A DNA stretch of 30,014 bases. It comes from a virus. The notes below the pieces were generated by a model, which made no database searches, was not told the origin of the DNA, and saw only the letters and a program-made list of their open reading frames with translations. Location: positions 1-30,014 of the IMG/VR virus record IMGVR_UViG_3300045004_000053; one strand, 5' to 3'. Shown here one piece after another: positions 13,848 through 26,879 of the stretch. The position numbers were made by a program, and so were the translations under genes. Within the stretch, counting starts at the first letter, position 1. Each line of letters opens with the position of its first letter.

Positions 13848-15494
13848 TCATCCGAACGGGCTTTCGTCGGCTTCAGCCGCGCGCCAATAGGCGTCCGGGT
13901 CCGTCGGGTCGCCCATCGGCGGCGCTTCGCCCCCATGACCCGCCGGGGCGGCCGGCCGCTCTGTGATGCCGTCCTCCGCCAGTTCCTGGATCGTCTTCAG
14001 GCGGATCGGCCCCCGGTACTTCAGCCCGGACTTGTCCTTGCCCATCAACCCGATCTGGCGGTCGCGCAGGGCGTCGCCGAAGGCCCGCGTGGACATGGGC
14101 TTCTCGAACCCCTGGTCCTCGAACCATTTCTTGAAGTCGTTGTAGAGGACGCCCGACAGCTCGCGGTCGGTCCCGGCCTTCTCGCCGGTCCAGCATCGCT
14201 CCCGCAGCCAGTCGCCGAACGGCGAGGACGACTTGCGATAATCGTCCAGCACGGACTTCAGGCTCTCGGGCATGGCCAGAGACCCCGTCTCCAACCAGTC
14301 GCCGACGCCCTCGACCAGCCAGTTCAGGATTCCGGGCAACTCCCCGTCTCTCAGCTTCTCGGGCAGCAGCCGGTCCATTTCGTCCTCGGGCACCTGGTGC
14401 CGGAACTGGGGTGTCAGCACCCGTCGCCAGATCCCGTCGTCATCACCGCGCGCCACGGGGAAGGCGTTGCACTCGAAGATGATCTTGGCCTTGGGCCGGA
14501 AGTTGATCGGCTTGGAATGCAGATCCCGCGCCGAGATCGGCGAGCCCGAGGTCCAGGCCTTCAGCAGGCCCTCGTTGAACTTGGCCCCGCGCTTGGGCTC
14601 CGACAGCACCGCCAGGCGCGTATCCCCCGACAGGGCGATCAGGTCCGGCGCTGCATCCGATCCCGACCGCATCCCGCCTTCCAGGAAGGTGTCCGGCGAC
14701 GCCGCCACGCCATATGTGCCCAACGCCTCGCGACAGGCGTCCAGGATGGTGGACTTGCCGTCCCGCCCCCGCCCCTGCACCAGGGCGAAGGCCTGTTCCT
14801 CGGTCCGTCCCGTGGCGGCATAGCCCAGCAACCGCTTGAAGAAGGCCCGCTCTTCGTCCTCGGGCAGGCTGGTCTGCACCACGCCGCGAAACAGCGGGGC
14901 CTCCGCGTCCGGATCGTAATCCACGGCCGCCATGCGTGTGATCCGGTCGGCCGGATCGTGCGGGCTGATCCAGGTGCGAAACCGCCGCCCCGGCGCCGCC
15001 CTGGGGTCGAAACGCATCTTCAGCGTTCCGTTGCGACAGTTGATGGCGAGGGGGTCGCGGTCGAACACCTCGATCCGCACGGTCAGATAGGATTGCGCCT
15101 GTTTCAGCATGGACGATGTCGCCCCGGCCGATCCGCACCCGTCCATGAACTTGAACACGTCCTTGGGCGTCTTGCCCTGCGCCACGAAGGCGTCGAAACA
15201 CCCGCGCAGCGCTCGCGCCGTCCGGTGCGCCAGTTTGCGCGCTTCGTCTTCGCCGCACTCACGGTCCCAGAACCGGCCGTTGAACCCGATCCAGCCCAGG
15301 CCCAGCAGATACAGCAGGCGACAGTTCGTGGTGTCCACGTCCCCGTCGTCGTCGATCTCGCCGCCGCCCATCAGGATCAGCCGCATCCCGTTGCCGAAGT
15401 CGTTCATGTCGAACGCCGCCAGCCGCTCGGGGGCGGGCGCCGCCGTCCCTGCCTTGGCCCGCGCAGCAAAGGGATTGTCCGTCTGTCCGTCCAT
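13848..15494 (-). CDS. Phage/plasmid primase-helicase, SF3 (P4/D5 type)
   Basis: The 548-aa protein has a D5_N-like region (INCRNGTLKM at about 151-160) and an SF3 helicase core: Walker A GRGRDGKST (241-249), Walker B LAVLSEP (294-300), and motif C KIIFECNAFP (about 337-346) followed by the arginine region WRRVL. A C-terminal winged-helix-like region (about 420-500) may bind origin DNA. No zinc-ribbon or archaeo-eukaryotic primase motif is obvious in the N-terminus, and the separate prim-pol gene probably supplies priming. The ATG at 15494 overlaps the preceding stop (TGATG). The protein should be the replicative helicase acting at the iterons just downstream. Confidence 0.93.
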   Translation of the reverse strand: MDGQTDNPFAARAKAGTAAPAPERLAAFDMNDFGNGMRLILMGGGEIDDDGDVDTTNCRLLYLLGLGWIGFNGRFWDRECGEDEARKLAHRTARALRGCFDAFVAQGKTPKDVFKFMDGCGSAGATSSMLKQAQSYLTVRIEVFDRDPLAINCRNGTLKMRFDPRAAPGRRFRTWISPHDPADRITRMAAVDYDPDAEAPLFRGVVQTSLPEDEERAFFKRLLGYAATGRTEEQAFALVQGRGRDGKSTILDACREALGTYGVAASPDTFLEGGMRSGSDAAPDLIALSGDTRLAVLSEPKRGAKFNEGLLKAWTSGSPISARDLHSKPINFRPKAKIIFECNAFPVARGDDDGIWRRVLTPQFRHQVPEDEMDRLLPEKLRDGELPGILNWLVEGVGDWLETGSLAMPESLKSVLDDYRKSSSPFGDWLRERCWTGEKAGTDRELSGVLYNDFKKWFEDQGFEKPMSTRAFGDALRDRQIGLMGKDKSGLKYRGPIRLKTIQELAEDGITERPAAPAGHGGEAPPMGDPTDPDAYWRAAEADESPFG

Positions 15495-15840: not shown

Positions 15841-17700
15841 TCACGCCCCTTCGCTTGTATGAAAATCAACACCGTTGGGCGGAGCCAGCAGGCGAACCCG
15901 GTTCGCCTCTCCCCCACCCTGCGCCACCGGCCGCTTCCACGCCTGTTCCGCCAGGGAACCGCAGAACCGCGCCGCATCGCCGCCCCTCAGCTGGACCCGC
16001 TTCGTCCCGCCGCCGACCTTGCGAACCTTCAGTTCCGGCGTGACCAGGTCGCCCCGCACCGCCAGCCAGACCGCCCCCATTCGGGGCAACATCCACGGGG
16101 CGCAGGCCGGATCGGCCCGAGGCGAGACCGGATCGACCCGCTGATACTTGTCGCCGGCCGGGCCGCCGCAGAACCCGCTCAGGGTCGGCGCGACGGACAC
16201 CCCCATGACGTCGTCCGTATCCTCCATGTCGCTGGCCAGCGCCCACGCGTCTTGCAGGTCGATGGACACCAGCACCGACCCGAACGGCTCCGCCGGCGTC
16301 AGCACACAGGCCCGGCCCGTCGTGTCGCCGACGAAATGGGTGAACCGCTCCGCCCCGCGATGACCCCGCCCGCCGATCAGCGGCAGGATCGCCAGGGCGT
16401 CCGGCGCATCCGCCTCATGGCCCGGCAAGGTCAGCGGCGCCAACAACGCCGGTCCCCGATGGCCGCTGCGATCCAGCGGCGCATGGGCGTGCGCCCTCAG
16501 GCCCGCCAACGCCCGTTTGGCCCATGCCCCATCGTGCGACAGGCCCCGAACCTTCAACCAGGCCCGAACCAGCCCAACGTCCGCTGGATCGGCCTCGGCC
16601 CACAAGCCGCGCGCGTCCGTCGCCGTTCCGTTGACGGATCGGTTGGCGGAAATCACGTGCGGGGCCTTCGACCCCTCTGCCCGCCGGGGCGCGCCGCCGG
16701 TTTGCTGGCGCCCAGATGCGTTGCGTGAAGGCTCGGCCGATTTCGGGTTCATGGCGCCGAACGCCAGCGCACGGTCCACCTGACGGATCAGCTGGGCTTC
16801 GCTCATGGCGCTGGGCACATGCACCCGGCCCGCATTCTCCAGCGCCGACCGCGCATAGGCCTCGTCGATCTCGCCGCCGGCGACCAGCCGCCCGATCGAG
16901 CAACTGGCGGAATACAGGGTGCTGTCGCGCGACCCGACACGGGCCGCCTGAATGGTCGCCACCGCCCGATCCAGCGCCGCCTCGCCGTATGCACTGGCCC
17001 GCCCCTCGACCCGCACATGCGGCTTGGCCTCGACCTGGACGGGCGCTTCCTTCGGCTTGACCAGGGCGATCAGCCACGCAGGCGCAGGCGCGAAATCCAT
17101 CTCCCACGGCGCATGGCCGGGCCGCCAGCGATAGACGAAGCCGGGCGGAACCCCCTTTTTGGCGTCGCCGGGATGGATGCTGGGCGCGACGACGATGTAA
17201 CCACCCTCCCCCCGCACGTCCAAGGGCGCGCCGGACAGCTGCGAGCGGTTCGAGATATCGGCCGCCGCCGCTTCGTCATTCCACAGGAAGCACCGATGCC
17301 GCCCGCGCGCCGTCTGCTGTTCCACCGTATCGGGCAGTGGGCCGTGTTCCGCCTCCCGCGCCGCGATCCAGGCGGACGCCTCAGGCCCGTCTTCGTCCAG
17401 CACCCAAAAACCCGCCGGGGCTCCGGTGGCGATAGCCACGTTCGCCGACGGCTGCGCCTTGACCGGCCGCAACAGCCAGTCGTCCGACTTGCCGGGGTTC
17501 TTCTCGCGCAACTTCTCGATCGGCTGCAAAGGCAGCATCCACCGCCCGGCCCAGCGCTCCCGCGCCGTCCGCACGTCGGCCGACGCCATATGCAGCCCGA
17601 CCGTCCGCCCATACGGCTGTTTGGTTCGCGGCCGCAGCGGGAAGACCGCAATCGCCCGCTCCGCCAGCCGCACCGCCGCTTCCATCGTCGGCGTGGTCAT
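15841..17700 (-). CDS. Bifunctional primase-polymerase (prim-pol) with C-terminal toprim-like domain
   Basis: The 619-aa protein carries the N-terminal prim-pol domain (about 1-220): WVLDEDG with the catalytic acidic pair Asp102/Asp104, GRHRCFLW with His135, and DVRGEGGYIVVAPSIHPGD (161-179). A helical middle follows, and the C-terminal part (about 400-600) looks like a degenerate toprim_3-type domain (SVLVSIDLQDAWALA, then MGVSVAPTLSGFCGG and FCGSLAEQAWKRP). It would make primers and possibly extend them for the SF3 helicase encoded two genes downstream. The ATG at 17700 overlaps the methylase stop as ATGA. A palindrome copy lies at 15892-15906, read as Ala-Asn-Arg-Val-Arg. Confidence 0.9.
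   Translation of the reverse strand: MTTPTMEAAVRLAERAIAVFPLRPRTKQPYGRTVGLHMASADVRTARERWAGRWMLPLQPIEKLREKNPGKSDDWLLRPVKAQPSANVAIATGAPAGFWVLDEDGPEASAWIAAREAEHGPLPDTVEQQTARGRHRCFLWNDEAAAADISNRSQLSGAPLDVRGEGGYIVVAPSIHPGDAKKGVPPGFVYRWRPGHAPWEMDFAPAPAWLIALVKPKEAPVQVEAKPHVRVEGRASAYGEAALDRAVATIQAARVGSRDSTLYSASCSIGRLVAGGEIDEAYARSALENAGRVHVPSAMSEAQLIRQVDRALAFGAMNPKSAEPSRNASGRQQTGGAPRRAEGSKAPHVISANRSVNGTATDARGLWAEADPADVGLVRAWLKVRGLSHDGAWAKRALAGLRAHAHAPLDRSGHRGPALLAPLTLPGHEADAPDALAILPLIGGRGHRGAERFTHFVGDTTGRACVLTPAEPFGSVLVSIDLQDAWALASDMEDTDDVMGVSVAPTLSGFCGGPAGDKYQRVDPVSPRADPACAPWMLPRMGAVWLAVRGDLVTPELKVRKVGGGTKRVQLRGGDAARFCGSLAEQAWKRPVAQGGGEANRVRLLAPPNGVDFHTSEGA
15892..15906. repeat. Interspersed palindrome copy 5 (exact)
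   Basis: GCGAACCCGGTTCGC near the C-terminal coding end of the prim-pol gene; the symmetry extends to 19 bp (AGGCGAACCCGGTTCGCCT). Read Ala-Asn-Arg-Val-Arg. Confidence 0.8.
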
Positions 17701-18953
17701 GCGTCACCCATGGCGATGTCGCAGGCGGGCAGAGCCGCGCCGATCCGGTGCATGGCCAACAGGGCGTACCAGGGGTTCAGTTCGATAACCGTGGCGTCTA
17801 GCCCTCGCCGCGCCGCGACCAGGGCGGTCGTTCCCGCCCCGCCGAACGGATCGAGGACGCGCGCACCCTCCCCGCCCGAGGCGTCCAGGCATCGCTCCAC
17901 CAGGGACGGCGGGAAGGTGGCGAAATGCGACAGCCAGCCCGTGTGCGATCCGCAGGTGCAATACCGCTGGCGATCCACGCCGCCGTCAGCCCGATCAACC
18001 TCGACGACCCGCAACGCCCGCACGGCCTTACGGTCGAAATAGGCGCAGCAGTCCGTGCAGAGTTCGGAGTCGAACGGCGTCGTCGCCATCGCCCAAACAT
18101 CGACCGGTGACGGCTCATAGGTCCGCAGGCTGCGACCTTCGCCGCGTAGATAGGCGACCGGCTCCCGCTCGGTGCGGAACTGCGACGACTGTCCATGACC
18201 GCCCGCCGACGCCTTGTGATGGCGGGCGAAACTGTCGCCGCGCTCTCGGCCAGACCGCTTGATCGACCCATGACCGCCTTCGCCGACGGACCGATCCCAC
18301 CCCTTCGGCACGGGACAGTTGCCGACCGAGGCGCGACGGCCGGGCTCATCGTGAACGTAGGACCCGCCCCGGAACCCATTGGCGTCCTCGCCCGAGGTGC
18401 GGCCCTGACGGACGGCGGCCTTGTCGTAGAAATACGTCCCGGACTTCGTAAGCTGGAAGATCTTCTCGAACGCCGTCGCCGGACGGTCCCGCGTGGACTC
18501 CGGCATCGGGTTCGTCTTGCCCCAGATGTTTTCCGACCGAACCCACCACCCGTCGTCCTGCAGCGCGATGGCCAGACGGTTGGGGATCATGCACAGGTCT
18601 TTCGGCTTCAGCGTCCCGCCGACCGTCGAGAACGGCTTGTCGCGGAACGTCCGATCATCCCCGCCGGCCGCCTTCGTCGCCGCCGCGCTCCGCCCGTTCG
18701 GCGTCGTGGCGTAACAGTCGCCGTAGTTGAGCCACAGCGTCCCGGTCGCCTTCAGCACCCGGCGGCATTCGCGGAACACCGCAACCATGGCGTCCAGGTG
18801 CTCGCCCAGCGTGGGCTCCAGCCCCAGCTGACCCTCGACGCCATAATCCCGCAGGCCCCAATAGGGCGGCGAGGTGATGATCACGTCGAAATAGTCCGAC
18901 GGCAGGCCGCTCAGCTTGGCCAGCACGTCGCCGATCAGGATGCGCACGGTCAT
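17697..18953 (-). CDS. DNA amino-methyltransferase (N6-adenine or N4-cytosine), beta class
   Basis: The 418-aa enzyme has motif IV TSPPYWGLRDYG at 27-38 and the AdoMet-binding motif I DPFGGAGTTALVA at 368-380, the order of the beta class. Product (N6-mA or N4-mC) cannot be decided from the SPPY motif alone. A long Gly/Arg-rich insert (about 185-275) and a Cys cluster (C299, C302, C303, C332, C334) are inserted between the motifs and may be a target-recognition region with a metal site. The start at 18953 overlaps the cytosine methylase stop as ATGA. No restriction endonuclease gene is near, so it is probably an orphan methylase that protects phage DNA or alters regulation. Confidence 0.9.
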   Translation of the reverse strand: MTVRILIGDVLAKLSGLPSDYFDVIITSPPYWGLRDYGVEGQLGLEPTLGEHLDAMVAVFRECRRVLKATGTLWLNYGDCYATTPNGRSAAATKAAGGDDRTFRDKPFSTVGGTLKPKDLCMIPNRLAIALQDDGWWVRSENIWGKTNPMPESTRDRPATAFEKIFQLTKSGTYFYDKAAVRQGRTSGEDANGFRGGSYVHDEPGRRASVGNCPVPKGWDRSVGEGGHGSIKRSGRERGDSFARHHKASAGGHGQSSQFRTEREPVAYLRGEGRSLRTYEPSPVDVWAMATTPFDSELCTDCCAYFDRKAVRALRVVEVDRADGGVDRQRYCTCGSHTGWLSHFATFPPSLVERCLDASGGEGARVLDPFGGAGTTALVAARRGLDATVIELNPWYALLAMHRIGAALPACDIAMGDA

Positions 18954-20809
18954 GCGGCCATCCTCTCGGCGGGCGTATTGTCGTTCAGGTTGGCCGCCGC
19001 CAGGGCATAGGCCAACGGCGGCGGGACCGAGTTCCCGACCATCAGGGTCGCGGCCGTGCCCGTGATCGGATTGCCCCACGGGTCGCGGTCGATGATGTAG
19101 TCGGCGGGGAAGCCCTGGGCGTTGAACAGTTCGCGGACCTTCAACATCCGCATGCCGATGTCGGCGATCTCCCACGTCTGGCCATGCAGAATGACCAGGC
19201 CGAACCGCAGGCGCGCCTGCGTCGTCCCGGTCGGGTCCGCCCATTCGGCCTCGGTCGGCTCGCCGAAATGATCCCACAGGAACCGCAGCACCGCCCGGCG
19301 ACGGCTGTCCGGCAGGGCGCCTATGGCCTGAAGCCGCGCTTCGATCAGCCGCTGCTGCGTCGCCCGACCCGTGATCGTGCTGACGCCCTCGCGCAGGTCA
19401 TGCCCCACCATCCCGGTGTTGGCCTGTTCCAGGAAGGTGGTCACCAGCCCGTGGCGATCCTCGCCCGTCACCGTCCGCACCGGATCGGCCGCCTCGCCCG
19501 CGTTCACGCCCATCCCATAATAGGTGGTCAGGTTGGCGGCGATGACGGATAGCTTGCCGCCGCCCCCCTCGCCCATGATCGTCGGCGACGGTTCGGTGAT
19601 GTCGTTGCCCGCGACGTTCGATCCGAACTGGCGACCCAAGGTGGCGGCGATCACCTGCGTCTTGCCGCCGCCGCCCGCAGTGATCGCACCGACCGGATCG
19701 GCGACATCGCTCCCGACGGAACGACCGAACTGGCGGCCCAGGCTGGCGACCGCCACGGCGAACTCCCCGCCCTTGGCGGCCGTAATCGTCCGGATCGGCT
19801 CGTTGGCGGCGTCCACGCGGTCAGGCGACCACTTGGTGTTCAGGATCGGGACCAGGGTTGGCGCGGCAAGCGCCTTCTCCCCACGATGCGCCGAGGTGAT
19901 GGTGGACAGGGGCTCTGCCGTCGTCGGAACCCGCCGTTCGCCGTGATGGGTCAGTTCGACGATGAACGGATCGGGCGATCCGACAACATAGCGTTCGATC
20001 CCCTTGGCGATCCGGCTCATGGTCGCATCGACCAGAGGCCGTTTGATCTTCAGCCCTTCGGCCTTGGCCTCGGCGGACGACATGAAGATCGACGGGCACC
20101 GTTCCGACCAGTCGATGATGGAGGCCGCGCTGGCATAGGGCAGCAGGCCCAGGGCGGCGGCCTCGCGCCTCGGCGCATGGGTGCGTTCGGGCCAGACGAT
20201 GGCCTCGCCGTCGCAACGCGCCAGGATGAACAGCCGCTTGCGAGTCGTCGGCGCGCCATAGTCGGCGGCGTTCAACACCTTCCACTCGACCGTATAGCCC
20301 GCCTGTTCCAGTCGACGGATGAAGCGCTTGAACGTCTCGCCCCGCCGCTTCTTGATCGGCTTGCCTTGGGCGTCCAGCGGCCCCCAGGTCGTGAACTCCT
20401 TGACGTTCTCGATGAAGATCACGTCCGGCCGGCGCAGCTTGGCCCAGGGGATGATGCACCACGCCAGCCCCCGGATGCGGGGCGACTTTGGCGCCGAACC
20501 CCGCGCGATCGAGAAGTGGGTGCAATCCGGCGAGGCCCAGAAGGCGCGGATACGGCGGCCGGGCTCCAGCGTCATCGGATGGACCGAGGTCGCATCGTCG
20601 CACAGGTGGACGCACTCCGGATGATTGACCTGGTGCATCCACAGGGCGGTGGCGTTGTGGTTCAGCGCATAGTCCGGCGCGAAACCGGCCTGCGCCATGC
20701 CCGCGCTGGAGCCGCCGCCGCCCGCGAACCAGACGACGTTCAGCGGGGTCAGCAGGGCGCCTGCGGCGATTGCGGCGGCAGCCGCAGCGAGGCGAACCGG
20801 GTTCGTCAT
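18950..20809 (-). CDS. DNA cytosine-5 methyltransferase with repeat-rich insert
   Basis: The 619-aa enzyme has motif I VVWFAGGGGSSAGMAQAG (25-42), a catalytic motif SPDCTHFS with Cys96 (in place of the usual PPC), ENV at 134-136, TRKRLF at 189-194 and the C-terminal motif LMVGNSVPPPLAYALA. Between the catalytic half and the last motifs (about 298-490) lie six degenerate repeats of 31-38 residues, each with a (D/E)P..(T/A)(I/V)T core followed by a Gly-rich turn and a V-A-x-L strand. This is where the target recognition domain lies in m5C enzymes. The N-terminus MTNPVRLAAAAAAIAAGALL is hydrophobic and unusual. The start at 20809 overlaps the upstream stop as ATGA. A palindrome copy is at 20792-20806. 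Confidence 0.9.
   Translation of the reverse strand: MTNPVRLAAAAAAIAAGALLTPLNVVWFAGGGGSSAGMAQAGFAPDYALNHNATALWMHQVNHPECVHLCDDATSVHPMTLEPGRRIRAFWASPDCTHFSIARGSAPKSPRIRGLAWCIIPWAKLRRPDVIFIENVKEFTTWGPLDAQGKPIKKRRGETFKRFIRRLEQAGYTVEWKVLNAADYGAPTTRKRLFILARCDGEAIVWPERTHAPRREAAALGLLPYASAASIIDWSERCPSIFMSSAEAKAEGLKIKRPLVDATMSRIAKGIERYVVGSPDPFIVELTHHGERRVPTTAEPLSTITSAHRGEKALAAPTLVPILNTKWSPDRVDAANEPIRTITAAKGGEFAVAVASLGRQFGRSVGSDVADPVGAITAGGGGKTQVIAATLGRQFGSNVAGNDITEPSPTIMGEGGGGKLSVIAANLTTYYGMGVNAGEAADPVRTVTGEDRHGLVTTFLEQANTGMVGHDLREGVSTITGRATQQRLIEARLQAIGALPDSRRRAVLRFLWDHFGEPTEAEWADPTGTTQARLRFGLVILHGQTWEIADIGMRMLKVRELFNAQGFPADYIIDRDPWGNPITGTAATLMVGNSVPPPLAYALAAANLNDNTPAERMAA
20792..20806. repeat. Interspersed palindrome copy 6 (one mismatch)
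   Basis: GCGAACCGGGTTCGT, last base changed, over codons 2-6 of the cytosine methyltransferase gene (Thr-Asn-Pro-Val-Arg). Confidence 0.7.
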
Positions 20810-21030
20810 GCCGACCGCTCCACCCGCAACAGGTCTTGCACCTCTTCCGGGTCCAGCGCCTCGCCCTTCGTTCCGAACAGAGTGCCCTTGCATGGCAAGG
20901 CGACCGCGTCCGGGCACGCCGTCACCTTGCCCGCCGCCATCGCCTGGGCGATCAGCGCCCGATCCGCGTCCGTGATCGGTGCAGGACGGTCGCCCGTCCG
21001 CTTCCTGTAGTAGGTCCGGCGCGGCCACAC
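20806..21030 (-). CDS. Small phage protein (74 aa), unknown
   Basis: It begins with GTG at 21030 (MWPRRTYYRKRTGD...) preceded by GGAGG at 7 bases, and ends at 20806 overlapping the cytosine methylase start. The middle, LIAQAMAAGKVTACPDAVAL, resembles small proteins common in alphaproteobacterial prophages, with a Cys-Pro near the centre; no function is known to me. A long in-frame extension to 21585 is open, but it runs antisense-like through the two upstream genes and has shadow composition. Confidence 0.65.
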   Translation of the reverse strand: MWPRRTYYRKRTGDRPAPITDADRALIAQAMAAGKVTACPDAVALPCKGTLFGTKGEALDPEEVQDLLRVERSA

Positions 21031-21032
21031 CC

Positions 21033-21440
21033 TCAGTCCTCCGCATAGGGCAGGCGGCGGGCGTTGGACGCGGCGACGTCGCCGACGACGGCGACGGGCG
21101 CCTGCGCCGTCACCGGCGTCGCGCGCCCGACCTCGGTCAGCAGTTCGTCCATCATCCCGGCCACGGCCAGCAGCGACGGCGCGATCTCCGCCCGCCGCGC
21201 CGCATCGGTCTGACGGCCATAGGCCAGGGCCAGGGACCAAAGCGGATAGGCGATCAGCCCGCGCGGATAGGCGGCCGGGATTTCGTACATCGTCCGCGCC
21301 TTCAGCGCCTTGTCCGCCAGGGCCGACAGGGCGGCGGGCGTCTGGCTCTCGACGGCGGCATGGGCTTCGCGCACCAGGTCGCGCCACTGGGGGCGGTGCT
21401 TGGCGTGATCGGCGGGGATGATTTTCCGGCGCCGGGTCAT
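21033..21440 (-). CDS. Hypothetical protein in the cro operon
   Basis: The 135-aa protein begins MTRRRKIIPADHAKHRPQW and is predicted to be mostly helical, with a Leu/Ala-rich central part and a C-terminal region rich in Val/Ala. No domain is recognised. The start at 21440 overlaps the Cro-like stop as ATGA, and its own stop lies 2 bases before the GTG of the next gene, so it is a coupled early gene. Confidence 0.7.
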   Translation of the reverse strand: MTRRRKIIPADHAKHRPQWRDLVREAHAAVESQTPAALSALADKALKARTMYEIPAAYPRGLIAYPLWSLALAYGRQTDAARRAEIAPSLLAVAGMMDELLTEVGRATPVTAQAPVAVVGDVAASNARRLPYAED

Positions 21441-21724
21441 TGGGTCCGCTCCAGCGACCCGACCGACGCCGGCAATGGCGCCCCGGACAGTTCGGGCGGA
21501 TACCAGTCAGCCGCGACCACCTCGCCCCGCGTCCATTCAAGGACGTCGGCGATCTTGTCCTCGCCTGGCACGATCCGCCGATCATCGCCGAACGGCAGCA
21601 GATAGCGGCTCGCGCCTTGGGGCGAGATGCCCCAGCGTTCGCCCAGGTGGCGGGTGCCCATGCCCCGGTCGCGCAGCCACCGATCCATCTTCGGGCGGGG
21701 CTTGAATGTCGGTTGTTCGGTCAT
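21437..21724 (-). CDS. Cro-like transcriptional regulator
   Basis: The 95-aa protein begins MTEQPTFKPRPKMDRWLRD and holds a helix-turn-helix in MGTRHLGERWGISPQGASRYL, followed by VPGEDKIADVLEWTRGEVVAADWYPPEL. The ending A.DWYPPEL is typical of small phage Cro/YdaS-like regulators. It is divergent from the CI-like repressor and is the first gene of the long leftward transcript. The shared control region (21725-21809) contains an operator-like site at 21782-21797. By analogy with lambdoid phages it should favour lytic growth by acting on the same sites as the repressor; that is inference. Confidence 0.8.
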   Translation of the reverse strand: MTEQPTFKPRPKMDRWLRDRGMGTRHLGERWGISPQGASRYLLPFGDDRRIVPGEDKIADVLEWTRGEVVAADWYPPELSGAPLPASVGSLERTQ

Positions 21725-21770
21725 CGTTGCGGTCCGCTGATTCGCGATGACCGTGATAACGAAACTTATT

Positions 21771-21809
21771 CGGTGGATTTCGCAACCATTTAGTTTAGAC
21801 AATCCACCG
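21771..21809. promoter_or_regulatory. Operator region between cro-like and repressor genes
   Basis: CGGTGGATT (21771-21779) and AATCCACCG (21801-21809) form a perfect 9-bp inverted repeat. Almost exactly at its centre lies GCAACCATTTAGTTTA (21782-21797), which matches the operator-like sites at 22947-23018. The inner site and the outer dyad share a centre within half a base. On the minus strand TTGTCT (21802-21797) could be a -35, but a good -10 is not evident; promoter positions are therefore left open. The repressor ATG at 21810 touches the right arm. Confidence 0.6.
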
Positions 21810-22613
21810 ATGCAGTCGCTCGCCCTCCAACGGCCGCTGTTGCAACGTCCGCCCCGCATGGTTGGCGATGTTGAAATGGCAGGTCACGGTGATGACGCCC
21901 TCCTCCTCGGACGGGCGCTGGGCGTGCTGCGCAAGCGCGCCGGCCTGACACAGGAGGGCGCCGGCGCTCGCCTGGACATGTCCGGGCAGGCCTGGGCCAA
22001 ATATGAGAAGGGCCGGGTTCCCGGCATCTTCCACCCCAATACGCAACGCCGCCTGACCGCCGCCCTGGGCTTCGAAGTCGCCGACCTGGAACGCGAGCGC
22101 CAGATCCTGTCCGGCGGCGGCCAGCCAGCCACCGTGACCGAGATCCGCAGCTTCGCCGCAGCGACCAGCAACAGCAGCCTACCGATCCGCGATCGTATTC
22201 AGGCTGGCGCATGGTTGATGGCGGACGACACGTCTCAGGTTTCGCCGCGCCGTCACGCCTTTGCGCGCGACCCGCGCTTTCCCCACGCGGATCAATGGCT
22301 GTCAGAGGTGATCGGCGACAGCGTGGATCGCCTGGGCATCTTTGAAGGCGACCTGGTTCATTGCGTAGATTTTGAAGGCGCAGGCCTGGGCCTACAGACG
22401 GGCCAGATCGTCGAGGTTGAACGCCTTCGGTTCGGCGGTGCGGAGCGCGAACTCAGCATCAAACAGGTCGAGTTTTCACCGGCCGGGCCGCTACTTTGGC
22501 CCCGATCCTCGAACCCGCGCTGGGCCACGCCTCTCAGCATGACGGACGGGGCGAATGATGAGGTCGAGGTCCGCATTCGCGGCCTTGTGGTCCAGTCTAT
22601 CCGTCGCTTTTAA
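21810..22613 (+). CDS. CI-like repressor with S24 (LexA-type) autocleavage domain
   Basis: Counted from ATG 21810 (267 aa), an XRE-type helix-turn-helix lies at about 33-68 (LGVLRKRAGLTQEGAGARLD...SGQAWAKYEKGR). The C-terminal half is an S24 peptidase: a likely Ala132-Gly133 cleavage site in RIQAGAWL, nucleophile Ser171 in VIGDSVDRLGIFEGDLV, and general base Lys218 in ELSIKQVEF. The repressor should keep the lysogen and be inactivated by RecA-stimulated self-cleavage. The true start is uncertain; ATG codons at 21859 and 21877 are also in frame and none has a strong ribosome site. Its 3' end overlaps the convergent membrane-protein gene by 17 bases. Confidence 0.88.
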   Translation: MQSLALQRPLLQRPPRMVGDVEMAGHGDDALLLGRALGVLRKRAGLTQEGAGARLDMSGQAWAKYEKGRVPGIFHPNTQRRLTAALGFEVADLERERQILSGGGQPATVTEIRSFAAATSNSSLPIRDRIQAGAWLMADDTSQVSPRRHAFARDPRFPHADQWLSEVIGDSVDRLGIFEGDLVHCVDFEGAGLGLQTGQIVEVERLRFGGAERELSIKQVEFSPAGPLLWPRSSNPRWATPLSMTDGANDEVEVRIRGLVVQSIRRF

Positions 22614-22851
22614 CGGCCAGGGCGTCCTGAATACGCCGCAAGTGCGCGCAGACGCGCTCTGCCGCTAGAAGGATTACGCCGGCGATGAAGGCGAATCCGC
22701 CGCCGATGAAATACATCTCGCGCTGAAGCATCAGATCAGTGTTTGCGATGGACGGGTCGGCTGGCGTCGTCACGTCCATCGCCCCCGCGCCGATCATTTG
22801 CGCGATGCCTGCGACCAGCAGGAACACGCCTCCAATCAGAATACGCTTCAT
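22597..22851 (-). CDS. Small two-span membrane protein beside the repressor
   Basis: The 84-aa protein begins MKRILIGGVFLLVAGIAQM. Two hydrophobic segments (about 3-22 and 48-67) are separated by a polar loop, and the C-terminus is basic (AHLRRIQDALAVKSDG). GAGGATGTC just before the ATG at 22851 is a good ribosome site. The gene lies in the immunity region, convergent with and overlapping the repressor, and opposite in direction to the early operon. Small membrane proteins in that position are often expressed from the lysogen and can block superinfection. I infer that as a possibility only; no family is recognised. Confidence 0.65.
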   Translation of the reverse strand: MKRILIGGVFLLVAGIAQMIGAGAMDVTTPADPSIANTDLMLQREMYFIGGGFAFIAGVILLAAERVCAHLRRIQDALAVKSDG

Positions 22852-22946
22852 GACATCCTCCAGCCCACACACTGCCCCTGCAGCAGGAGCGAGACAATCC
22901 CCGCCCTCGCGATAGGAGTCTGCGTGCTCAATCACTAGCCGACTTC

Positions 22947-23018
22947 GCGACCAAACGGTTTTCGACGCCAACTAAAGGGTTGCAAACTTCCCGGTTGACT
23001 TTCCAACCATTTGGTTGG
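22947..23018. promoter_or_regulatory. Three operator-like sites upstream of the early operon
   Basis: Sites at 22947-22962 (minus strand, weakest, 11 of 16 matches), 22968-22983 (minus strand) and 23003-23018 (plus strand) share the pattern sCAACCaTTTrGTTkG with the site at 21782-21797. The last, CCAACCATTTGGTTGG, is a near-perfect palindrome (CCAACCA-TT-TGGTTGG). Starts are 21 and 35 bases apart. Their presence on both sides of the repressor gene, and nowhere else that I noticed, marks them as the probable repressor operators. Confidence 0.65.
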
Positions 23019-23024
23019 GATAAG
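22995..23024 (+). promoter_or_regulatory. Rightward early promoter overlapped by an operator
   Basis: TTGACT (22995-23000) as -35 and GATAAG (23019-23024) as -10 are 18 bases apart. The palindromic site CCAACCATTTGGTTGG fills the spacer (23003-23018), so bound repressor would exclude RNA polymerase. Transcription would start near 23031 and run through a leader of about 140 bases into the early operon at 23168. Confidence 0.65.
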
Positions 23025-24261: not shown

Positions 24262-24705
24262 GTGAACCTGCGCCTCTACTACATCGAACAATGGACCGAC
24301 GAGGTCATGCCCTGCCAACCGACTCTGGAGGGCTGGGCCGCATGGCTTGCCGCGCCGGATGCAGAATATGAGCGGCCTGAACCCGCCGCCGACGGCGAGA
24401 CCTTCACGGCCTCTGTTATCGAGGTCCTGGGCGACGTCCGCGTGGAACGGAAAGACGGCGTGTGGGAAACCGTCGAGACCATCCCCGAAGGCACGGATTG
24501 CTTCTTCCTTCGCCATCACCAAGGCAGTGAGGGATGGAACGCCGAATATGCTGCAAACACCCTCGCCGACGCCACCGACGGGTTGGACGAGTTTGACGAC
24601 AGCCCGTGCTGGTTCGCCTGCACTCGCAGCGCCCCTGAAGTCCGGCTGACCTTCAGCTATGCCGAGGACGGCCCGCGCATGACCGTTGGGGACGTGGGCC
24701 AGTGA
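24262..24705 (+). CDS. Early acidic protein (147 aa), unknown
   Basis: GTG start at 24262 with GGGAG 9 bases upstream; begins [20 protein letters not shown]. Strongly acidic, with many Trp and Glu residues ([40 protein letters not shown]) and beta-like sequence. Such acidic composition is common among early phage proteins that bind host factors or mimic DNA, but that is only a possibility here. Ends in a GTGA overlap with the ParB-MucR gene. An upstream in-frame extension to 24094 would duplicate the neighbour's DNA and is rejected. Confidence 0.65.
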
Positions 24706-26879
24706 GCGGCCTCGAACTCAACCCCGTGGCGGTCGGCAACGCCGTCGTCCTGCGCGCCATCAACGCGGGCGGCTGGTCCAGCCGCGCCGAACTGGCCCAT
24801 GCGGTCGGCAAGGACCCCCGCAACCTTCCGCGTGACATCGGCGTCCTGGCCAAGGCCGGACTGATCGCCGACGCCGGCGGAACCGCCCTGACCCTGACCG
24901 ACGAAGGCCGCGCCCAGCTGGACGCCATCGCCCGTGCCGAGGGTCAGACCACGGGCGGCGACCTGCTGCCCGACGAACGCCTGGTCGTCCACGCCCAGCT
25001 GCGGCCCGACCCGGACAATCCGCGCAAGGACTTCGACAGCGATGAGGCCCAGGAAAAGCTGGACGAACTGCGCGTCAGCATCGTCCAGGACGGTCTGTTG
25101 CAGAACCTGGTCTGCCGCACCGATCCGGAAGGGATCGCCGACTACATCGTCACGGCCGGGAACCGCCGCTGGCATGCGATCCAGCAGGCCATCTTCGACG
25201 CCGACTGGCCCGAGGACCGCCCGATCCGGATCAAGCTGCGCGAGGGCGACGCCCAATCCTCCCTGCTGACCGCCATCGTCGAGAACAAGCAGCGCGCCGA
25301 CATGACCGAGATCGAGGAGGCCGAGGCCTTCGGCGACCTGGTCAACGTCCACGGCATGAAGACCATCGACATCGCAGGCAAGACCGGCCTGTCGCAGAAG
25401 GTCATCCAGAACCGTCTGAAGCTGCTGCGCCTGTCGGACGAAGACAAACAGCGGATGCGCCTGCCCGAGGATCACCCCGACCACCTGGGCTACAAGGCCG
25501 CCCTGCGTCAGCTGACGGTGACGCGAGAGCCCGAACCCACCCTGTCGCAACAGATCGCCGAACACGGGACCGCGACCCTCGCGACCGGCGAACCCGGTTC
25601 GCCCGATCCGTCGCCGACGCCGAGCCCCGCCGCCTCCCTGGGTCGCTCGCTGACCGACGTCGAGGCCCTGATCCTGGCCGAGGTCGCGGACAAGGCCGAG
25701 CGCCAGCCCGACGACCTTCATCCCGGCTACACCGCCGCCCTGCCCCAGGCGATGAAATCGGGCGTACCCCACCTGATCGCGCGCGGCCTGCTGGGCACCC
25801 GGCAAAAGGGCATGACCCTGCTGATCCGTCCGCTGCTGCACACTTCGGGCCTGAAGCAATGGCTTGAGGCCATCGGCTTCTATGACGCCGGCCGCGACAC
25901 GGTTCTGTTTGAACTGGCGGCCCGCGTTCAGGGTGCCGAAAACACCGCCGACCGGCAGTCGTGCGGAATCCGCTACGCCACCGCATGGCTGAACCTTGAG
26001 GGCGATCCTCGCAATGAAGCCGCGACATCTGCTTCAGCGCCAGACGACATCGCACTTCGAACCTTCAAACCCGACCCCAGCCTGACGCAAGCCGACATCG
26101 ACGAAGCCTATGAGGCGACCGAACGCGCCGTCCGCAGTCTCCATGAGCCTGAACAGCCCGAACTGATCGAGGCGACAGAGGAAGAGAAGGCCGCCCGCCG
26201 CCGCGCAGAACGGATGGCGGCCGAGGCGGCGTCCGACGAAGCCGCGCTCGCCACCTTTGTCGGGTGGATGCGGGACAAGCTGGCGGCGAAGCGTGCTGAA
26301 GGCGCTCACGGCTGGCGTAACCCCGAGGCCTGCGCGGTCCAGGACATCGCTGACCAGCTGGTCGGGCACGTCGCCAAGGGCGATCCGGTGGACATCGCGA
26401 TCCTCGCAATGATGCTGGGGATCAAGGCGGGAGCCATGGGCGCTCCAGGCCACCTGCGAACCATGCCGACGCCGCGTATGGAGCGGCTGATGATAGAGGC
26501 CCGCGCCGCCCGCTACGTCAGCGCCGAAGGCCCCGCAGAACCCGATCCCGTCGAGGACTTTGTCCAGGAAGAGCTGGACGACGAAGAAGCCGACGCGGGC
26601 GGCGTTTGGACCGAGGCCGCGCGAGCCTTCGACGGCAAGCGCGAACGCGGCGGACCGGCCGTCCCCATCCGCAAGAGCATCACGCCCGACTTCATCGTCT
26701 GTTTGGAGGATGGTCGGAAGTTCAAGTCGCTCAAGCGGCATCTGCGCACCCGGTACGACCTGTCGCCCGAGGAGTACCGCGCCAAGTGGGGGCTCCCGTC
26801 TGACTACCCGATGGTGGCGCCGAACTACGCCAAGGCTCGCGCCGACCTCGCCCGTCAGATGGGGTTGCGCGACGCATGA
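24702..26879 (+). CDS. Winged helix - ParB - MucR fusion protein (725 aa)
   Basis: One uninterrupted frame from a GTG overlapping the previous stop. Residues 1-80 form a MarR-like winged helix ([20 protein letters not shown]). Residues 90-250 are a ParB/Spo0J domain: [28 protein letters not shown] (GxRR), [14 protein letters not shown], and the [23 protein letters not shown]. Residues 315-440 are helical and unknown. Residues 523-575 carry [15 protein letters not shown]...[17 protein letters not shown], a motif seen in several phage proteins. Residues 656-722 are a Ros/MucR domain ([37 protein letters not shown]). The zinc ligands are altered: Cys-Asp-His-Arg instead of Cys-Cys-His-His. It is probably a DNA-binding regulator or partition-like factor. 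A palindrome copy lies at 25588-25602. Confidence 0.9.
25588..25602. repeat. Interspersed palindrome copy 7 (exact)
   Basis: GCGAACCCGGTTCGC inside the ParB-MucR gene, in the linker after the ParB domain. Here the reading frame differs (Gly-Glu-Pro-Gly-Ser), so the DNA sequence, not the peptide, is what is shared. Confidence 0.8.

Follow-up and report, generated by a model that had tools for sequence, protein, structure and literature searches.

What is the function of the related short sequences that lie on both sides of a repressor gene in a virus contig of 30,014 bases? The whole contig, here called the window, was analysed. Four such sites, at 21782 and 23003 on the plus strand and at 22947 and 22968 on the minus strand, had been recorded in the initial annotation, where they were read as a putative repressor operator.

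The genes transcribed leftward in the window encode two DNA methyltransferases, a primase, a terminase, a portal protein, an HK97-type head protein, a tail tube protein and a tape measure protein, and those transcribed rightward encode a ParB/ROS-MucR protein, an HTH_17 protein and an integrase. A small divergent gene (21437–21724, minus strand; 95 aa) occupies the position of cro; it is an open frame, and a homologous frame was read from the sequence in the relatives L006 and L031. Family searches with its product returned no match and no DNA-binding family. Directly downstream of it, two adjoining ORFs at 17697–21046, with frames overlapping at 18950–19277, match DNA methyltransferase families. 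The primase is split over two ORFs, with 15841–17700 resembling the N-terminal part and 13848–15494 the C-terminal part of phrog_1156. On the other side, 24702–26879, in the operon behind the rightward promoter, encodes a protein of 725 aa that has ParB N-terminal and HTH domains and a C-terminal domain of the ROS/MucR zinc-finger type.

The repressor gene (21810–22613, plus strand) encodes a CI-like protein of 267 aa, made up of an HTH_31 domain (residues 33–94; E 4e-12, over the curated cut-off) and a LexA/S24-like C-terminal domain. The C-terminal domain aligns with LexA (E 7e-4), with S171, K218 and A132-G133 lining up with the Ser, the Lys and the Ala-Gly cleavage site, and the protein is probably SOS-cleavable. 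It resembles annotated phage CI/S24 proteins (E 2e-12). Because the Pfam S24 score is under the cut-off, the S24 fold is considered likely and not proven; the structure model was poor outside the HTH domain. Candidate start codons at 21747 and 21858 were dropped for the one at 21810, where M-x-SLAL is conserved; 15 bases upstream of it, L031 has a stop codon in the same frame.

A symmetric 16-position matrix was trained solely on sites from other prophages (L006, L031, L072 and L073) and applied to the approximately 30,000 positions of the window. It ranks exactly the four recorded sites 1 to 4. These candidate operators are L1 (GCAACCATTTAGTTTA, 21782–21797, plus strand; score 23.9), R1 (CCAACCATTTGGTTGG, 23003–23018, plus strand; 19.3), R3 (GCAACCCTTTAGTTGG, 22968–22983, minus strand; 16.5) and the weaker R4 (GAAAACCGTTTGGTCGC, 22947–22962, minus strand; 14.6), and 0.02–0.2 random positions per 30 kb are expected at each of these scores. 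The training set included no counterpart of either R3 or R4; L006 has a site at the position aligned with R4. Ranks 5 and 6, which had been overlooked, fall in the same two regions. They are R2 (CAAACTTCCCGGTTGA, 22983–22998, plus strand; score 8.4), a weak candidate, and L2 (GAAACTTATTCGGTGG, 21761–21776, plus strand; score 8.4), a candidate that is weak in this phage. All six top-ranked sites fall in the gaps that adjoin the repressor gene on either side, and these gaps together account for 1.3 % of the window. Hence the original four sites are real but the set was incomplete, and the matrix points to about six sites, two left of the repressor gene and as many as four right of it. R2 and R3 are only 15 bp apart, and may not be filled simultaneously.

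The consensus first proposed, sCAACCaTTTrGTTkG, has four matches in the window when up to 3 mismatches are allowed, against 0.44 expected, and four were reached in 0 of 100 shuffles, a test that is circular in that the consensus was taken from the tested sites themselves. The element does recur in relatives, but this consensus needs to be relaxed, to a 16 bp element with the core [C/A]AAC-N6-GTT[G/T]. When viral contigs were searched, a pattern with the spacing one base off (TTGACNNNCAAC...) gave 16 matches, which were treated as chance, and the pattern with the correct spacing gave three, all of them known relatives.

The rightward promoter (22995–23024, plus strand) was read from the sequence as TTGACT (22995–23000), an 18-nt spacer and GATAAG (23019–23024), and L031 has TTGACA, 18 nt and GATAAC at the same place. 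In R1, the two perfect 7-bp arms of an inverted repeat enclose TT; the site begins 2 nt past TTGACT and abuts GATAAG, and the original description of the best copy as a palindrome exactly between these two hexamers holds. R2 overlaps the −35. A probable leftward promoter (21756–21785, minus strand) consists of the −35 TTGCGA (21785–21780), an 18-nt spacer and a weak −10, CGTTAT (21761–21756). It was placed by alignment with the rightward promoter and with L070 and L071, which have TTGACA at that −35. A sigma-70 scan called no standard promoter, the leftward one included; alphaproteobacterial promoters are often a poor fit to the sigma-70 consensus. AATAAG on the minus strand (21770–21765) was considered as the leftward −10 and rejected, as it is inside L2 and leaves no proper −35, and the alignment of the two promoters puts the −10 further on.

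When the left region, read on its minus strand, is aligned with the right region, read on its plus strand, both promoters have the same layout, AAAC-N6-GTTG over the −35 followed by a second operator in the spacer. On the left, L1 overlaps the −35 and L2 is in the spacer. This common layout indicates that each promoter has its −35 embedded in an operator half-site. L1 ends 12 bp upstream of the start codon of the repressor gene, an interval without an evident Shine-Dalgarno sequence. L1 therefore probably governs the repressor's own mRNA too, and that mRNA is perhaps leaderless.

L1 had also been described as the centre of a larger dyad, at 21771–21809. The dyad exists, with arms TCGGTGGATT...AATCCACCGA at 21770–21779 and 21801–21810 that are perfect in the window. 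However, the right arm is absent in relatives, and this 39-bp dyad was rejected as a functional element. Its expectation is 0.009 in local shuffles, yet the whole window holds 23 such dyads, and for this reason it is probably coincidental.

Related prophages were then compared. Repressors of L005–L008 and L031 are 69–72 % identical to that of the window, and L008 sits inside a Brevundimonas genome assembly. L070–L073, in other genomes of the same family, are more distant relatives. In all of these the element is kept on both sides of the repressor gene. Seven non-redundant records, namely the window and six that share the repressor HTH domain, were used for counting, and in the six the element has the positions that it has in the window, flanking the repressor gene as originally noted. 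The position of L1 is common to all seven. In each of them, two operators exactly 21 bp apart immediately precede the repressor start; the left site 21 bp from L1 has a mean score of 11.5 (z 3.7 relative to offsets 10–49). In the rightward promoter, TTGAC is followed after 3–4 nt by an operator in 7/7 records. Further upstream, a site 20 bp from R1, corresponding to R2, is found in four of the seven, and a site 34–35 bp from R1, corresponding to R3, in five, in one of which it is weak. Shared ancestry of the control regions explains some of this conservation, and L070 and L071 are close to one another.

The element follows the HTH domain of the repressor and not the C-terminal domain. Records with the same HTH have site scores of 16–23; of those scored, L070, L071 and the window contributed no training sites, and L006, L031, L072 and L073 did. 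In L009–L011 and L033–L036, which have only the C-terminal domain in common with the window's repressor, no site scores >11. L073 shares only the HTH and has a different C-terminal domain, and the operators are still present. Domains of these repressors have been shuffled, with L009–L011 pairing the S24-like C-terminal domain with an unrelated HTH and L073 showing the reverse. In the 3.1 Mb genome containing L008, the one relative checked in this way, the consensus with no more than 1 mismatch occurs only at the two control regions of the prophage. In a further Brevundimonas genome, G130, two copies of CAACCAGTTGGTTGG are approximately 75 kb apart (L046 and L048), and a search of G130 found no full-length repressor homologue.

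These comparisons support the operator reading, and we consider it very likely that the sites serve as immunity operators in a lysogeny switch of the lambda type, run by the repressor encoded at 21810–22613. The identification of the phage as a temperate, HK97-like siphovirus with a Brevundimonas-like host forms one claim with this reading, and is held with the same high confidence. We infer repressor binding, promoter use, autoregulation, cooperativity and SOS induction, which would be combined as follows. Dimers of the repressor would bind the 16-bp inverted repeat [C/A]AAC-N6-GTT[G/T] via their HTH domains. Each early promoter would carry a pair of sites 20–21 bp apart, or two helical turns, one overlapping the −35, with its TTG part of the half-site GGTTG, and the other filling the 18-nt spacer, and two more sites would be available upstream of the rightward promoter. 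At this spacing, the two dimers would sit on the same face of the helix, which would suit cooperative binding. Dimers over the −35 and the spacer would keep RNA polymerase off both early promoters, and closing the leftward promoter would turn off the cro-position gene, the methyltransferases, the primase and the packaging and structural genes, and closing the rightward promoter the ParB-like protein, the HTH_17 protein and the integrase. Through L1, the repressor would control its own transcription. Upon DNA damage, RecA-stimulated self-cleavage at A132-G133, as in LexA and CI, would free both promoters.

Lambda has one set of operators that both CI and Cro recognise, and here too a small gene is in the cro position, with a homologue beside the operators in L006 and L031. 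The sites could accordingly be bound mainly by the cro-position protein (21437–21724), or shared between it and the repressor. We regard this as unlikely, as the protein matches no DNA-binding family and the presence of the operators tracks the repressor HTH in every record examined; sharing, moreover, would supplement control by the repressor and not displace it. We think it very unlikely that the operators belong to a host regulator, such as the chromosomal HTH paralogue described below, and serve the phage in host sensing, with the prophage repressor acting elsewhere. Most Brevundimonas genomes do contain such a paralogue, preceded by a partly similar site, but the sites flank and track the phage repressor gene, and the consensus is nearly absent from host chromosomes, with 13 matches in all (≤1 mismatch) among 131 Brevundimonas genomes. 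Chance similarity of promoter DNA, suggested by sites that are AT-richer than their surroundings and by TTG being common to −35 elements, can practically be dismissed given the out-of-sample ranks, the TTGAC–operator distance, the conserved spacing and the near absence of the element elsewhere in the 3.1 Mb genome.

As immunity operators, the sites belong to a region that resembles the CI regions of lambda and 434 in having an HTH repressor with a LexA-like domain, a small divergent gene adjoining it, and operators inside two divergently oriented early promoters that flank the repressor gene. The 434 operator is ACAA-N6-TTGT, and the 4-6-4 geometry is shared with it, whereas the half-site here is CAAC/GTTG. 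In place of lambda's three operators per side, the left region here has two and the right region as many as four. The 20–21 bp spacing, the −35 built into an operator half-site, the HTH_31-type domain and a cro-position protein of no recognisable family also differ from lambda and 434. The predicted switch thus works like that of lambda but without the lambda operator arrangement. Judged from sequence, the operator set is genuine, well supported and of a known kind, and involves no new mechanism.

Rhizobium phage 16-3, another temperate phage of alphaproteobacteria, has a C repressor with the operators oL1, oL2, oR1 and oR2 (PMC12429752). By description, it is similar in that the basic unit is a pair of operators per side; a search of the phage collection with the window's repressor gave no match to any 16-3 record. 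CI/S24 repressors of Sinorhizobium phage phi3LM21, Rhizobium phages RHph_TM3_3_3 and RHph_N28_2, and Microcystis phage Mae-JY35 are 34–38 % identical in the C-terminal domain, and these matches exclude the HTH domain. Searches restricted to a library of open-access papers found no description of this operator or of such a switch anatomy in temperate phages of Caulobacteraceae, an absence that is not proof of novelty.

A counterpart of the repressor HTH, approximately 45–60 % identical, is present in most Brevundimonas genomes, and was detected in 109 of 390 genomes of the family (E ≤1e-8), nearly all from the genus set. The paralogue (L052–L069) is a single HTH_31 protein of approximately 200 aa in most Brevundimonas genomes, and in most loci examined its gene is just downstream of a NifU-like gene, which was identified by eye from the C-terminal end of its product. 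Its C-terminal domain is S24-like but degenerate, and nearly all copies lack the catalytic Ser and Lys. The sequence GAAAC-N6-GTY is found 25–35 bp before the paralogue start in 11 of 17 loci examined and is missing from the other six. The phage-trained matrix scores above chance at the paralogue loci (combined p ~2e-11, not corrected for shared ancestry). When the host motif was searched for across the genus with its flanks fixed, most of the matches were scattered. The paralogue may be a domesticated relative of the repressor with a related operator. That the prophage repressors and the chromosomal regulator of Brevundimonas share one operator code is a tentative proposal, and on balance we doubt it.

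The interest of this locus is in the clean operator code and in the host paralogue. For temperate Caulobacteraceae phages, the former sets out concretely both the code and the anatomy of the switch; immunity groups would thereby be predictable from sequence, and the code may supply promoter/repressor pairs for alphaproteobacteria. The latter prompts one to ask whether, in these bacteria, phage operators are read by a phage-repressor relative that has become fixed. If the code is shared, a domesticated, non-cleavable relative in the host could bind phages of this immunity type as they enter and silence them; alternatively, the host gene could be a target of the phage repressor.
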